Source: a virus
Strand: one strand, 5' to 3'
DNA length: 31,900 nt
Virus record (IMG/VR): IMGVR_UViG_3300020214_000071
Span: 1 to 31,900 of that record
The notes beneath the pieces are model-generated. The model did no database searches, was not told the DNA's origin, and worked only from the letters and a program-made list of their open reading frames with translations. Below, piece after piece: positions 26,582-31,900 of this stretch; position 1 is the stretch's first letter, and each line of letters begins with the position of its first letter. The position numbers and the translations under genes are program-made.

Positions 26582-27850
26582 ATGCCCATACCCGCCATCA
26601 TTCAGACTACCGACACGTTTAATACGTGGCTTGATGCCACCAATAATGTTATTAGTGAGATTGCAAACACAAGCACGTACGTGCTTGTAACAAATGCGAC
26701 GAGTGCAAATTTAGTGTCGACCGGTAATGTATATGTGAACGGGGCGGTACATACTGCGGTATTGGTGGCCAATGCAAACGTTGTGCTAGGGGGTACCGCA
26801 CTGGAGGGGGGCACTCCGATATTACGACTGACTACAAACTCCTCAAATAGTAATACCGCGACATTACGCGGAACAAATCTTACTATTACCATGACCAACA
26901 CGGTGTGGGCCGGAACAGATTTAACGATAGGACCGAATACTCTATTTCAGGGGGTGGTTACAATTAATGCGACCGCCACTTTAACTAAGAATGCGGCAAT
27001 CGCAGGATCGGTGCTGACCATCCACAGTAACACCACAGTAAATACGCTATCCGTTGGCGCAGACCAAGCATTAACATACAATGTTAATAGTACTGTTTCA
27101 CAGATTAAGACCAACAGCACAGTGTACACCACTAATGCGGCCAATATTTTCTTTACGGGCACAAACCTAACGCTTGGTCCAAATACGGTGACTAACGGCG
27201 CATTGACCACAAATAATAACGTCACTTTTGGTGGGAATGTGACGTTTAGCAGCAATGCGACGTTTAATAATGCCATGGTGTTGGGTGGTCCGCTGTCGTT
27301 TGGTAGCAGTTTTGTTGAAACCGCCACTAATTTAAGTGGGTCGGGTATTGCCGGACCGCTTTCCGCCAATGCTAATTCCGTTATTCATCGCGTGACGGCA
27401 ACGGATCCGTCCTCTGGATATACCGGAAAGATAGTTGCAGGAATTCAACAAGCCAACACGACGCAATATCGTCAATTGGTGCTGTTCAATACAGGTGCGG
27501 TTACATTAATTTTTCAACACGCAAATGCCGCCGCCGGTGCCAATGGTGTGTTGTGTCCCGCGAACAGGGACTTTCAAATTCCTGGCGGCGGCACCTGTAT
27601 GTTATACTATGATGTCAGTGTCGCGAGTGGCGCGCGTTGGCGGGTAATAAGTGCTCCGATTGACCTTGATGCCAACACAAGTGTTGCTGGATATGTCAAT
27701 ACCACCGCCCAATCGTTTGCAGGAGCCAAGACGTTTACGGGGACACTGACGGTAAACGGTGCGGTAGTGGTGGCGAATACCGTGGATTTGAATGATTCTA
27801 ATAGTGGTCGTTTAGTTCTTCCGGTCGGCGTCGATAAATGGAGCACCTAA
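26582..27850 (+). CDS. Tail fibre protein
   Basis: This 422-residue protein opens with TDTFNTWLDATNNVISEIAN, an N-terminal segment often found in fibres of marine T4-like phages. Residues about 40-250 are Asn/Thr-rich beta repeats (FTGTNLTLGPNTVTNGALTT, NVTFGGNVTFSSNATFNN). The C-terminal 170 residues form a more globular part, with SSGYTGKIVAGIQQ and a final SFAGAKTFTGTLTVNGAVVV then SGRLVLPVGVDKWS. The 'f.G.ktF.g.ltvnG.' strand is a standard trimeric fibre motif. The next fibre gene starts four bases later. Receptor specificity cannot be read from sequence. Confidence 0.7.
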   Translation: MPIPAIIQTTDTFNTWLDATNNVISEIANTSTYVLVTNATSANLVSTGNVYVNGAVHTAVLVANANVVLGGTALEGGTPILRLTTNSSNSNTATLRGTNLTITMTNTVWAGTDLTIGPNTLFQGVVTINATATLTKNAAIAGSVLTIHSNTTVNTLSVGADQALTYNVNSTVSQIKTNSTVYTTNAANIFFTGTNLTLGPNTVTNGALTTNNNVTFGGNVTFSSNATFNNAMVLGGPLSFGSSFVETATNLSGSGIAGPLSANANSVIHRVTATDPSSGYTGKIVAGIQQANTTQYRQLVLFNTGAVTLIFQHANAAAGANGVLCPANRDFQIPGGGTCMLYYDVSVASGARWRVISAPIDLDANTSVAGYVNTTAQSFAGAKTFTGTLTVNGAVVVANTVDLNDSNSGRLVLPVGVDKWST

Positions 27851-27854
27851 TATC

Positions 27855-28952
27855 ATGGCAGCAAATGGTTCAATGTGGATTGACGAAAGTTATTTGTATT
27901 GGCGTGACGCCGCTAATACTCGCTTTCGTTTTTTAGGAACCACTATTGCCACACCTGCGGGGGCGCGTTCGGGGAGTCTTTGGGTCGAGGCGAACAATAT
28001 TCATTATATCGATGCGACGGGCGTTGAACGGCGAGCGAATGGTGTTGCCGTCGCGCAACAGATCGGAAAAGCCGGTTCTGTTTGGGTTGAGACGTCGTAT
28101 GCGCCCTCGACTGCTAATGGGCAACTTCATTTTCTCGGGGAGTCACAATACGAGCATTGGGCACATAACGATACTGCGTTTGTTAATGCGCATACCGACA
28201 CGCCACACACGGATGCCCATACGGACACCGCCCATACGGATGCCCATACCGACACCGCCCATACGGATGCCCATACCGACACCGCCCATACGGACGCCCA
28301 TACCGACACCGCCCATACGGATGCCCATACGGACACCGCCCATACGGACGCGCATACCGACACGGCCCATGTCGACGTGTCGCATACCGACGAGGCGCAT
28401 GAGGACGTGCCGCATATCGACACGCCCCATGTCGACGTGCCGCATACCGACACGCCACACACGGATGCCCATACGGACACGCCTCATACGGACGCGCATA
28501 ACGACGAACATACCGACGCCCATACCGACGTGCCGGAGGGCATCGCCGAGGAGGGGGGGATCTTCACGCCGCATCAAGACGCTCATGACGACACCCACGG
28601 CGACACGCCTCATAGCGACGTAGCGTTCGTCAACAGTCATAGCGACGTAGCGTTTGTCAACAGTCATAGCGACGATCCGTTCGTCAACAGTCATAGCGAC
28701 ACGGCCCATGTCGACGTGCCGCATACCGACTATCCGTTCGTCAACAGTCATAGCGACGTAGCGTTCGTCAACAGTCATAGCGACGTAGCGTTCGTCAACA
28801 GTCATAGCGACGTAGCGTTCGTCAACAGTCATACCGACACGGCCCATGTCGACAGCCATACTGACGATGCGCATGTCGATAGTCATACCGATGTGTCGTT
28901 TGTGAATGCACATACGGATACTGCGCATATTGACGAGCCTCAACCCGTTTAA
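27855..28952 (+). CDS. Fibre-like protein with about 45 His-x-Asp repeats; proposed substrate of the downstream radical SAM enzymes
   Basis: The protein has 365 residues. Residues 1-100 hold three 'GS(M/L/V)WV(D/E)' beta repeats (GSMWIDESYLYWRDA, GSLWVEANNIHYIDATG, GSVWVETSYAP), which are common at the N-terminus of small fibre or tip proteins in marine T4-like phages. From H104 to the end almost everything is His-x-Asp. There are about 45 motifs, mostly HTD, with HSD, HVD, HID, HED, HND, HQD and HGD. Two repeat styles share a nine-residue period: AHTDAHTDT and HSDVAFVNS. A short acidic break (EGIAEEGG) lies near residue 230. There is no Cys. The protein ends DEPQPV. It is followed after 34 bases by two radical SAM/SPASM genes whose first member carries HGDHTD repeats. 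Metal binding, a Ca-type beta-roll, or enzymatic crosslinking of His and Asp are all possible; modification is inferred from context. Confidence 0.8.
   Translation: MAANGSMWIDESYLYWRDAANTRFRFLGTTIATPAGARSGSLWVEANNIHYIDATGVERRANGVAVAQQIGKAGSVWVETSYAPSTANGQLHFLGESQYEHWAHNDTAFVNAHTDTPHTDAHTDTAHTDAHTDTAHTDAHTDTAHTDAHTDTAHTDAHTDTAHTDAHTDTAHVDVSHTDEAHEDVPHIDTPHVDVPHTDTPHTDAHTDTPHTDAHNDEHTDAHTDVPEGIAEEGGIFTPHQDAHDDTHGDTPHSDVAFVNSHSDVAFVNSHSDDPFVNSHSDTAHVDVPHTDYPFVNSHSDVAFVNSHSDVAFVNSHSDVAFVNSHTDTAHVDSHTDDAHVDSHTDVSFVNAHTDTAHIDEPQPV
28203..28364 (+). repeat. Six tandem 27-bp units encoding (A/P)HTDAHTDT
   Basis: The six units run 28203-28229, 28230-28256, 28257-28283, 28284-28310, 28311-28337 and 28338-28364. 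They differ almost only at third codon positions (GAT/GAC, ACG/ACC), apart from the first unit, which begins with Pro. The low divergence suggests recent expansion or gene-conversion-like homogenisation in frame. Confidence 0.9.
28611..28829 (+). repeat. 27-bp units encoding HSD(V/D)(A/P)FVNS, interrupted once
   Basis: Units begin at 28611, 28638, 28665, then after an HTD/HVD interruption (28692-28748) at 28749, 28776 and 28803. The nucleotide units are nearly identical. The nine-residue period equals that of the AHTDAHTDT array, although the sequence between histidines differs. Confidence 0.88.
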
Positions 28953-28963
28953 TAATTAAAAGA

Positions 28964-28977
28964 TGTTATACTAGGAG
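28964..28977 (+). promoter_or_regulatory. Extended -10 promoter-like TGTTATACT and AGGAG ribosome binding site before the radical SAM genes
   Basis: TGTTATACT (28964-28972) fits the extended -10 consensus TGnTATAAT with one mismatch. No convincing -35 is seen. AGGAG (28973-28977) is nine bases before the ATG at 28987. If the promoter is used the transcript would start near 28979, after this AGGAG, so the two signals are partly competing readings: the Shine-Dalgarno would serve read-through mRNA from the fibre gene. No late octamer is present here. Confidence 0.4.
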
Positions 28978-28986
28978 TGTTTAATT

Positions 28987-30657
28987 ATGAGTATTGAAGT
29001 GCGACCAGTTGGTGTGACGTGTAATCTGCGATGTTCGTACTGCTACGAAGAGCCCGTCAGAAAACTCACCCCAACCCTTCGGTATAATCGTGAAGCGGTT
29101 CTTGCCGCAATCGAACATTCCGATAGTCGGTGGTCATTATTTGGCGGCGAAGCATTGCTTATCGGATTGCCTGAATTGGAAGAATTGCTGTCACTCGGGT
29201 TTCAAAAATGGGACAGCACCGGCGTCCAAACTAATGGCACGTTGATAACTGAAAAGCATGTGGAATTGTTTGAAAAATACAACACACACGTGGGGATTAG
29301 TTTGGACGGTCCGGATGAATTAAATGACTCGCGCTGGGCGGGCACGGTGGAGGCCACCCGTAAAGCCACCGAAAAAACCTTTCGTGCAATCGATATGTTA
29401 CTGACACGCGCCGCGGAAACAAACAATCCGAGATTGATTCCGAGTTTGATTCTGACGCTTCACGGAAAAAATACCACACCCGAAACGTGGCCACGCATGA
29501 AAGCGTGGCTTTCTGACATGGACCGGCGCGGCATTCAGTCATTTAACTTTCATGTAATGGAACTAGATGCCGACGCAACAAAGGATAGTGAATGGTATGT
29601 GCCACACGAGCGCATGAAGACGGTGATGTTAGACTTGTGGGACTTATCTACGACATGGACTAACGCGTCGGCTATTAATTTTAAAGAAATCATTAATTTA
29701 TTGCGGGCCAATGACAAGCAAGTGATGTGCGTCTGGCGCGCCTGTGATCCGTGGAATACCTCGGCGGTACAAGGACTGGAAGGTGATGGGTCACCGTCAC
29801 ACTGTACGCGCACGAATAAAGACGGGATTGATTGGCTACCGGCGGAAGGGTTTGGGGAAGTCGCAAAGTGGCAAATCGGCGACTTTCCATTGACCAATCG
29901 GAGCCACGAACGACAATTGTCGCTGTATGTGACTCCACAAGAACACGGAGGATGTCAGGGATGTCAGTATTGGTCGATGTGTATGGGTCAGTGTCCCGGC
30001 ACCGGAGAAGAAAGTCAAACGGGGCAGTATGGCGACTGGCGGCTGCGCACGACGTATTGTCAAACATGGAAAGATTTATTTGAAGAAGGCGAACGACGAT
30101 TGTTGGACATCGGAGAAACGCCATTTACAATGACACCCCAACGTATAGAAATTGAACGAGTGATGTATACGGCATGGACGCAAGGCAAAAATATACCACT
30201 ATCTACCGCAAAAAATATTGTGAATGGCACTATTTCGTTAGAGCAAGTTCTCGCGGCGCCGACATTAAAAAATTCTCACGGTGACCACACGGATCACGCT
30301 CTAGTACGCAATGACAACAATCGACCACATGGTGACCACACAGACCAAGCCTTGGTAGAAGGAATTGTCGATCGACCACATGGTGACCACACAGACCAAG
30401 CCTTGGTAGAAGGAATTGTCGATCGACCACATGGTGACCACACAGACCAAGCCTTGGTAGAAGGAATTGTCGATCGACCACATGGTGACCACACGGATAT
30501 TGTTCCTCATGGAGATCATGTCGATGAGGCGACAGAATCGTTAACATTACCGAAATCGCGAGAGCATGGCGATCACTGGGACACAGCACAAATTCATCGT
30601 CGGAACGCTCGCGAAGAGCACACAACAGCGACTGGGAAAAAAGTCGTGTTATGGTGA
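28987..30657 (+). CDS. Radical SAM/SPASM enzyme with C-terminal HGDHTD repeat tail
   Basis: The protein has 556 residues. The radical SAM cluster motif is C12-x3-C16-x2-C19 in VTCNLRCSYCYEEP. LFGGEALL (GGE at 53-55) and VGISLDGPDELNDSRW are core SAM-binding signatures. The SPASM part has C248, C253 and C273, then C323-x2-C326-x5-C332-x3-C336 and C358, the set expected to hold auxiliary 4Fe-4S clusters. Residues 370-430 are a helical linker. From H431 the tail repeats HGDHTDQALVEGIVDRP (three exact copies, one variant before), then HGDHTD, HGDHVD and HGDHWD, ending KKVVLW. SPASM enzymes modify peptides, for example sulfatase maturases, sactipeptide and cyclophane synthases. The tail shares the His-x-Asp signature of the upstream fibre protein, so that protein is the most likely substrate. 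The exact reaction cannot be told. Confidence 0.85.
   Translation: MSIEVRPVGVTCNLRCSYCYEEPVRKLTPTLRYNREAVLAAIEHSDSRWSLFGGEALLIGLPELEELLSLGFQKWDSTGVQTNGTLITEKHVELFEKYNTHVGISLDGPDELNDSRWAGTVEATRKATEKTFRAIDMLLTRAAETNNPRLIPSLILTLHGKNTTPETWPRMKAWLSDMDRRGIQSFNFHVMELDADATKDSEWYVPHERMKTVMLDLWDLSTTWTNASAINFKEIINLLRANDKQVMCVWRACDPWNTSAVQGLEGDGSPSHCTRTNKDGIDWLPAEGFGEVAKWQIGDFPLTNRSHERQLSLYVTPQEHGGCQGCQYWSMCMGQCPGTGEESQTGQYGDWRLRTTYCQTWKDLFEEGERRLLDIGETPFTMTPQRIEIERVMYTAWTQGKNIPLSTAKNIVNGTISLEQVLAAPTLKNSHGDHTDHALVRNDNNRPHGDHTDQALVEGIVDRPHGDHTDQALVEGIVDRPHGDHTDQALVEGIVDRPHGDHTDIVPHGDHVDEATESLTLPKSREHGDHWDTAQIHRRNAREEHTTATGKKVVLW
30277..30480 (+). repeat. Four 51-bp units encoding HGDHTD plus spacer, three exact
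   Basis: Units start at 30277, 30328, 30379 and 30430; the last three are identical over 51 bp. A further partial unit starts at 30481, then degenerate HGDHVD and HGDHWD units follow. All are in frame inside the first radical SAM gene, so this is a protein repeat. Confidence 0.92.
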
Positions 30658-30663
30658 TACATC

Positions 30664-31900
30664 ATGTCGATTGAAATTTTACCGGTTGGGGTTACCTGTA
30701 ATCTGCGATGCGACTATTGTTATGAAGAGGCCGGACGACGGGTTACTCCAACGGCCAAATACCACCGCAAAGAAGTGCTGGCCGCGGCCAAACAATCCAC
30801 GGGGTTTTGGCAATTATTTGGCGGTGAGCCCCTACTCGTGCGTCTCGAAGAACTAGAAGAATTATTAAAGGTTGGATATGAGGACTGGGGACAGACGGGT
30901 CTGCAAACCAATGGCACGTTAATCACTCCCGCACACATTGATTTATTTCGAAAATATAAAACACAAGTTGGTATTAGTTTGGATGGTCCGGACGATCTCA
31001 ATGATTCTCGTTGGGCGGGCACAATAGATGCTACCAGAAACGCAACACAAAAAACGTTGCGCGCAATTGATATGGTGTGCAACTTACAAAAAGAACCCGG
31101 TGCATGGTGGGGACACGGACCAACATTGATTATCACACTTCACGCAGGAAATTGTGCACCGGCCGTGTTGCCACGTTTCAAAGAATGGATTCGAGAACTC
31201 GATTGTAAGGGTGTGCGATTTATTAATTTTCATTTTTTAGAGATGGACTATGACGCGGGAAAATGGTTTTTGCCCGACGATCAACTTAAAACCGCGATGC
31301 AGGAGTTGTCGGCTCTTGAACCTGAACTGGTTCAATTAAAATTTTTAAACTTCCATGAGTCGCGCGAGTTACTACGGGGCGACGCCAGTAAAGCGATGTG
31401 TGTTTTTGGGTCATGTGACGGATGGAGCACCGCGGCGGTACAAGGAATTGGGAACGAGGGGAATCCCGCAAATTGTACTCGTGCAATAAAAGATGGAATT
31501 GATTGGTTGCCCGGAGAAGGATTTGGCTATCCGGCGCCGTGGCAAATTGGAGAGCCGTTTCCAAGTACTCGCGCCCATGTCCGTCAACTATCATTATACG
31601 TGACGCCACAGGAACATGGGGGCTGTAAGGATTGTCGATTCTTTATAACATGCACCGGCCATTGCCCAGGCACGGGGCTAGAGTTTGAGGAAGGTCGTGA
31701 TGGTGACTGGCGACTGCGCTCGACCCATTGTGCCGTATTGAAAGAACAATTTACTGAAATGGAAAAAAAATTGCGCGGGGTGGGAGAAGACCCGATTACA
31801 TTATCTCCACTACGACCAAAAATTGAACAAATTATGATTGACGCATGGTCTAAAGGTCGTAATATGCGTTTGAATGCGGCATTGGCGATCGCGACAGGCA
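30664..31900 (+). CDS. Second radical SAM/SPASM enzyme, paralogue of the first (runs off right edge)
   Basis: About 412 residues are visible with no stop. The start ATG is six bases after the first enzyme's stop. The opening MSIEILPVGVTCNLRCDYC nearly repeats the first enzyme (19 of the first 22 residues identical), with C12, C16 and C19, and LFGGEPLL at the same positions. GISLDGPDDLNDSRWAGT, the SPASM CKDCRFFITCTGHC (Cx2Cx5Cx3C) and CVFGSCDGWSTAAVQG are conserved. The following helical segment (IEQIMIDAWSKGRNM) aligns with the linker of the first enzyme just before its HGDHTD tail, so whether this one has the tail lies beyond the window. The divergence between the two enzymes suggests an old duplication with different sites or steps rather than a recent copy. 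Confidence 0.85.
   Translation, partial: MSIEILPVGVTCNLRCDYCYEEAGRRVTPTAKYHRKEVLAAAKQSTGFWQLFGGEPLLVRLEELEELLKVGYEDWGQTGLQTNGTLITPAHIDLFRKYKTQVGISLDGPDDLNDSRWAGTIDATRNATQKTLRAIDMVCNLQKEPGAWWGHGPTLIITLHAGNCAPAVLPRFKEWIRELDCKGVRFINFHFLEMDYDAGKWFLPDDQLKTAMQELSALEPELVQLKFLNFHESRELLRGDASKAMCVFGSCDGWSTAAVQGIGNEGNPANCTRAIKDGIDWLPGEGFGYPAPWQIGEPFPSTRAHVRQLSLYVTPQEHGGCKDCRFFITCTGHCPGTGLEFEEGRDGDWRLRSTHCAVLKEQFTEMEKKLRGVGEDPITLSPLRPKIEQIMIDAWSKGRNMRLNAALAIATG

Follow-up and report, generated by a model that had tools for sequence, protein, structure and literature searches.

Gene organization of the locus

The window (the whole 31,900-nucleotide stretch of DNA analyzed, positions 1 to 31,900 of IMG/VR record IMGVR_UViG_3300020214_000071) comes from a T4-like myovirus and spans its tail region, with genes for the tail tube, DNA end protector, tube cap, and baseplate wedge and hub, and with a 2232-aa DUF4815 protein encoded upstream of a 422-aa fibre-like protein. 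The features considered here are as follows.

26582..27850, + strand: fibre-like protein, 422 aa, C-terminal end PVGVDKWST; context, directly upstream of the repeat fibre
27855..28952, + strand: repeat fibre, 365 aa, the candidate substrate, with 45 H-x-D and 9 F-x-N motifs
27855..28163, + strand: N-terminal domain of the repeat fibre, three GSxW-type repeats (sequence)
28164..28934, + strand: repeat region of the repeat fibre, residues 104-360, aromatic-x-Asp/Asn units (motif positions)
28987..30657, + strand: radical SAM/SPASM enzyme 1, 556 aa (Pfam, SPASM cysteines, AlphaFold model, ChlB/anSME fold)
30268..30600, + strand: disordered HGDHTD-rich tail of enzyme 1, residues 428-538 (pLDDT <50)
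30664..31899/31900, + strand: radical SAM/SPASM enzyme 2, a paralogue, 412 aa within the window and open at its end (ORF, Pfam, SPASM cysteines, tree)

The original prediction had described a fibre-like protein with about 45 H-x-D motifs; the count is exactly 45, whereas 10,000 shuffles of the same letters average 6.7 and never exceed 16. The nine F-x-N motifs, which the original prediction left unmentioned, share the register of the H-x-D motifs (FVNSHSDV...), and just three His residues lie outside H-x-D, all before the repeat region. The N-terminal GSxW-repeat domain, which the fibre shares with Thermus phage proteins, is likely an attachment or recognition domain.

Genes immediately 5´ of repeat fibres, including the 26582-27850 gene of the window, often terminate in [VIL]P[VF]Gxxx[WFY]. 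Counted by eye, about 33 of the 45 repeat fibres in the listed loci are preceded by a gene ending in PVG/PFGxxx[WFY], a number that becomes 15 under a stricter script pattern. This ending might be a tag recognised in docking by the GSxW domain, and the repeat fibre may dock on the 422-aa protein.

Two radical SAM/SPASM paralogues and an H-x-D tail

As originally described, two paralogous radical SAM/SPASM genes (28987-30657 and 30664-31899) directly follow the fibre gene; their products are 54-55% identical, and both match Pfam Radical_SAM above its cut-off. The three cysteines of the CxxxCxxC radical SAM motif (C12, C16, C19) and all the SPASM cysteines (C253-X14-G268-X4-C273, C323-X2-C326-X5-C332-X3-C336, C358) are invariant in 46 aligned family sequences, and the full SPASM pattern, CX9-15GX4C ... 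CX2CX5CX3C ... C, is present in both window enzymes. Enzyme 2 clusters in the tree with the second enzymes of three related phages, L011, L012 and L014 (support 100/100), indicating that the duplication predates the split of these phages.

Assignment to a known family was less clear-cut, with both window enzymes scoring far under every curated family cut-off. None of the cyclophane-family models (YhhB, AmcB, GrrM/OscB, XyeB, FxsB, DynA) matched them above cut-off, the best of these being AmcB for enzyme 1 (68.6 bits, cut-off 425) and DynA for enzyme 2 (64.7 bits, cut-off 450); the DynA, YhhB and AmcB models were matched by all 46 aligned family enzymes. Anaerobic sulfatase maturase (anSME), which has a SPASM cysteine layout of the same style, is the best sequence match in the PDB and the best NCBIfam match of enzyme 1, at scores (81.6 bits for enzyme 1, 62.4 for enzyme 2) far below the TIGR03942 (anSME) cut-off of 349.45 bits. 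Among solved structures, the fold search returned ChlB first (E 3e-14) and anSME at 1e-13, which is in practice a tie. Judged from sequence, the window enzymes sit near both anSME and the cyclophane synthases.

Enzyme 1 was also originally described as carrying H-x-D repeats of its own, and it has 15, of which 14 fall at residues 431-530 in a C-terminal tail. This HGDHTD-rich tail of about 110 residues is disordered in the AlphaFold model (pLDDT <50), and a tail with at least two H-x-D motifs is found in 52 of 63 non-redundant family enzymes. Enzyme 2 probably has such a tail too, past the window end, since its orthologue (L001:9732-11129) has eight HxD motifs. The simplest, though tentative, reading of the tail is a substrate-like segment for docking or self-modification. 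A different arrangement was observed in one group of loci (L022, L023, L024, L027, L028, L032, L034), where the order is fibre, DUF483-methyltransferase, radical SAM gene, in some cases with small uncharacterised proteins between. The HxD tail is absent from most enzymes of this group, and the small proteins might stand in for its role.

A third gene and a wide distribution of the module

The original prediction covered the fibre and the two enzymes; a third conserved gene belongs with them. In related contigs the module consists of the fibre, a radical SAM gene (usually with an HxD-rich tail) and a gene for a DUF483-like protein, often fused to a C-terminal methyltransferase domain. The DUF483-like protein has four invariant cysteines (C148, C149, C198, C202 in L011); a model of the methyltransferase fusion reached a pLDDT of 92.6, and the fold search with it gave methyltransferase-type matches only, among the matches listed. 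The gene comes after the second enzyme gene in L011, L012 and L014, and a DUF483-methyltransferase gene is expected just beyond the window end. Its product may have a tailoring role or help in substrate handling. In one of these phages, a 2OG-Fe(II) oxygenase-like gene (L014:16160-16756; Pfam just below cut-off) lies directly 3´ of the second fibre gene, and its product could hydroxylate the fibre.

The module is not confined to a single phage but is found in T4-like phages, in Thermus phages (phiMa, Cumys) and in a haloarchaeal provirus on Halomicrococcus plasmid NZ_CP100467, where it adjoins a baseplate J gene. Three viral scans driven by the radical SAM sequence, a genome scan, phage and plasmid searches, and annotated records together yielded 66 loci with a distinct family radical SAM gene. 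The proposed pairing of enzyme and fibre is borne out by most of them: a gene dense in aromatic-x-Asp/Asn motifs lies within 6 kb on the same strand in 58 of the 66, and a DUF483-like gene is present in 62. Among the eight uncounted loci, phiLo encodes proteins with 72 and 101 H-x-D motifs on the opposite strand, L021, L040 and L047 lie at contig ends or on small fragments, and four (L060, L090, L355, L579) have the enzyme but seemingly no repeat gene nearby. These counts are the outcome of the check, named in the original prediction, for enzymes without any HxD-repeat protein.

Two of these four loci have no obvious virus context. One, on a Halorussus aquaticus plasmid (L355:8001-10206), has a family radical SAM gene with a DUF483-like partner; the other, in a Bryobacterales MAG (L090:10001-11977), encodes a radical SAM protein fused to a DUF483-like domain and is the only locus clearly in the family among the 80 kept from the genome-contig scan. 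Both are perhaps cellular relatives with another substrate. Their combination of genes without a repeat fibre fits a reading in which the radical SAM/DUF483 module serves to modify DNA or some other target and its adjacency to the fibre is incidental, as does the suggestion of DNA modification for Cumys, published on the basis of cyanobacterial gene context (PMC11437467). Nevertheless, diverse phages and the haloarchaeal provirus have the repeat fibre next to the module, the enzymes carry substrate-like H-x-D tails, and their closest relatives of known role act on peptides or proteins; this reading is the least probable of those weighed here.

A reverse search was carried out with HxD DNA-pattern scans in which the enzyme was not a query. 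The repeat fibres found mostly adjoin the same enzyme, in keeping with the predicted co-occurrence, and a few contigs have repeat proteins and no detected enzyme. When 30 contigs, most of them enzyme-free in the stretch initially retrieved, were searched whole, the enzyme was present in 11, and several of the remaining enzyme-free fibres end at a contig end (e.g. L290, L338). A real exception so far is L323 (46 kb), which has a repeat protein and no detected family enzyme. A shorter HxD protein of 12-13 motifs was seen in L189, L217, L239 and L245, three of these four contigs being without a detected family radical SAM gene. Weak HxD matches in L216, L222, L223, L233, L250 and L284 were set aside as low-complexity sequence or spurious frames. 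An F-x-N pattern scan of viral contigs was no test of the module, the dense matches among those listed being pentapeptide-repeat-like proteins, and a Y-x-D scan of viral contigs gave no new family locus.

As an intended negative control, we took 100 loci with distant radical SAM genes, six of which had dense motifs. Five of the six look like real cases of a second lineage, and the set is therefore no clean negative. The repeat proteins of four viral stretches (L069:3003-4355, L071:11354-12088, L075:12032-12760 and L076:8806-9729) have [Y/H/W]-x-[D/N] motifs (YSDHTNTGY..., SHSNSNNACST...), and each stretch has 3 to 11 radical SAM-like ORFs, with radical SAM genes that are only distantly related to the family. 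They may represent an independent second lineage that arrived at the same arrangement. The occurrence of the repeat fibre beside its enzymes is well established and extends far beyond this one window.

An aromatic-x-Asp/Asn motif under selection

Since selection by the motif itself was to be avoided, 46 non-redundant fibres were chosen by their N-terminal domain and nearness to the enzyme, some of the loci having first been fetched by the HxD pattern. Each of the 46 contains six or more aromatic-x-[D/N] motifs, and 1470 of their 1501 His residues lie in H-x-[D/N]. F-x-N is 6.8-fold and Y-x-D 1.6-fold enriched, while H-x-S, H-x-T and H-x-H hardly occur. A larger set, assembled by H-x-D count, shows nearly every amino acid in the middle position, though Pro very rarely, and its gaps between motifs are irregular, 3 to 10 residues long.

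The pattern of substitution was compared across 14 independent orthologue pairs. Amino-acid change was 2.9% at H1 and 3.4% at D3, against 24.9% at x2 and 24.0% in the linker, with synonymous change of about 20% in all four classes alike. The conservation of positions 1 and 3 at similar synonymous rates reflects selection on the protein and not the copying of DNA repeats. The commonest changes at these two positions are D to N and H to Y. Where H-x-D is missing or scarce beside the enzyme, other motifs stand in: H-x-N takes the place of H-x-D in L044, Y-x-D occurs along with H-x-D in L045, and the L032 fibre has 37 F-x-N and 4 H-x-D. The proposal that His1 and Asp3 are natural partners is upheld as to the two positions, which change at about 3%, and was too narrow as to the residues: from the sequences, the motif is aromatic (H, F, Y)-x-Asp/Asn, not His-x-Asp as such.

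Perhaps, in the two-enzyme phages, one enzyme serves each motif type, H-x-D and F-x-N. The two-enzyme T4-like clade accounts for six of the seven fibres with at least five F-x-N motifs, and L032 for the remaining one. Against such a division, the two-enzyme F-x-N phages are one clade, and L044 has two enzymes without F-x-N.

The H-x-H needle of T4 gp37, which binds metal, is a known fibre device, and His and Asp are good metal ligands, so that the repeat could instead be an unmodified metal-binding trimeric fibre of this kind, with the radical SAM module acting elsewhere. We consider this very improbable. H-x-H accounts for only 12 of 2538 His in the larger H-x-D set, L582 being the exception; the motif spacing is irregular; the enzymes themselves have H-x-D tails and are tightly linked to the fibre gene; and in L032 an F-x-N fibre adjoins the same enzyme. 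The L032 fibre does not fit metal binding easily and presents a known cyclophane pair. The L582 protein (L582:5431-7575) mixes H-x-D with many H-x-H motifs (PHSHTPHGD...), unlike the rest of the family.

A proposed maturation module for the fibre

The gene adjacency and sequence composition make the fibre very probably the substrate of the radical SAM enzymes. What they do to it is suggested by the motif grammar of the fibres, which, as far as primary structure tells, is that of the substrates of three-residue cyclophane synthases; together with ChlB as the top fold match, level with anSME, this leaves cyclophane-type SPASM chemistry, as originally proposed, the best precedent. We think it probable that these enzymes place a crosslink at every motif of the fibre and that the product is a three-residue cyclophane.

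The main rival is that the fibre motifs are modified by other chemistry: beta-oxidation, epimerisation, or a dynobactin-like bond between His nitrogen and carbon. The anSME is as close to the enzymes as ChlB in both sequence and fold, the dynobactin model is among their best matches, and position 3 is almost only Asp/Asn, narrower than in the cyclophane systems covered by PMC11002830. However, in L032 Phe replaces His with Asn at position 3; a nitrogen-linked bond is excluded in that fibre, and epimerisation need not be invoked. Moreover, an aromatic residue kept two places before Asp/Asn suits a bond between two residues better than a change to one. We regard such other chemistry as unlikely.

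Under the crosslinking model, the three window genes and the expected DUF483-methyltransferase gene would make up a module that matures a phage tail-fibre protein. Acting on the fibre repeat region, the two radical SAM/SPASM enzymes would link the aromatic side chain of His or Phe at position 1 to the beta carbon of Asp or Asn at position 3, and the DUF483-methyltransferase would assist or add a second modification. Up to about 54 three-residue cyclophane rings per fibre chain could be formed in this way, which would make an otherwise flexible chain a rigid rod that resists proteases, and the matured product would presumably be located in the virion.

The sequences suggest that many unrelated bacterial and archaeal viruses may chemically staple their own fibres by means of adjacent radical enzymes. 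Whether a viral tail part is a gene-encoded poly-cyclophane, with dozens of aromatic-x-Asp/Asn sites, dedicated radical enzymes and possibly more than one enzyme lineage, we judge to be evenly balanced. The best-known cases of radical SAM crosslinking concern small peptides; a virion protein matured at about 50 sites would be a new kind of structural material, and its covalent radical maturation a new tail-assembly step. A function would also be suggested for the phage radical SAM family and the adjacent DUF483-like genes, and enzymes that accept many repeats per chain could be useful for protein stapling. The module-bearing Thermus phages phiMa, Cumys and phiLo were grown on T. thermophilus HB8.

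Comparison with known systems

Among the open-licence papers listed by full-text searches, none was seen to describe radical SAM enzymes that act on a phage fibre or virion protein, which is weak evidence of absence. The hxs (His-Xaa-Ser) system, to which the original prediction drew a parallel, likewise combines a His-motif protein with radical SAM proteins. It is nonetheless a different system: H-x-S accounts for 6 of 2538 His in the larger H-x-D set, the HxsB model is a weak match in only 3 of 46 family enzymes, and HxsC is not among the 25 families listed. The anSME, as close to the window enzymes as ChlB, oxidises Cys/Ser and makes no crosslink, and no sulfatase gene was noticed in the module loci inspected.

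The enzymes of triceptide, or three-residue cyclophane, systems (XncB, OscB, YxdB, HaaB, YhhB; ChlB) are SPASM-type radical SAM proteins, as here, and their aromatic-x-X3 motif with conserved positions 1 and 3 recurs in the candidate fibre substrate. Precedents include Phe, Tyr, Trp or His at X1 and Asn or Asp at X3, with SPASM-enzyme crosslinks of Phe-Asn, Tyr-Asp, Trp-Asp/Asn and His-Ala/Arg (PMC11002830); the bond from Phe C4 to Asn C-beta is made by XncB or OscB (PMC11002830), and the passages of that source consulted here include no crosslink between His and Asp. ChlB is termed a 'multiple cyclophane synthase' in the reference list of PMC12636437. A triceptide substrate is a short leader-bearing precursor that is later trimmed, whereas the candidate here, a fibre-like protein of 365 aa, carries dozens of motifs, and neither a leader peptide nor a protease gene was seen in the modules inspected. 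The phage module also differs from triceptide systems in its extra DUF483-methyltransferase gene and its HxD enzyme tail.

Another close counterpart is the 'rSAM module' of Cumys and phiMa, an unknown protein, a radical SAM protein and a DUF483 protein for which DNA modification was proposed in 2024 (PMC11437467). This trio corresponds to the same three genes as the fibre module described here, its unknown protein, phiMa_29 or Cumys_13, being the repeat fibre, with 53-54 H-x-D motifs, repeats of which the passages of PMC11437467 consulted here make no mention. Described there for Cumys and phiMa, the module is here traced to T4-like phages and a haloarchaeal provirus as well.
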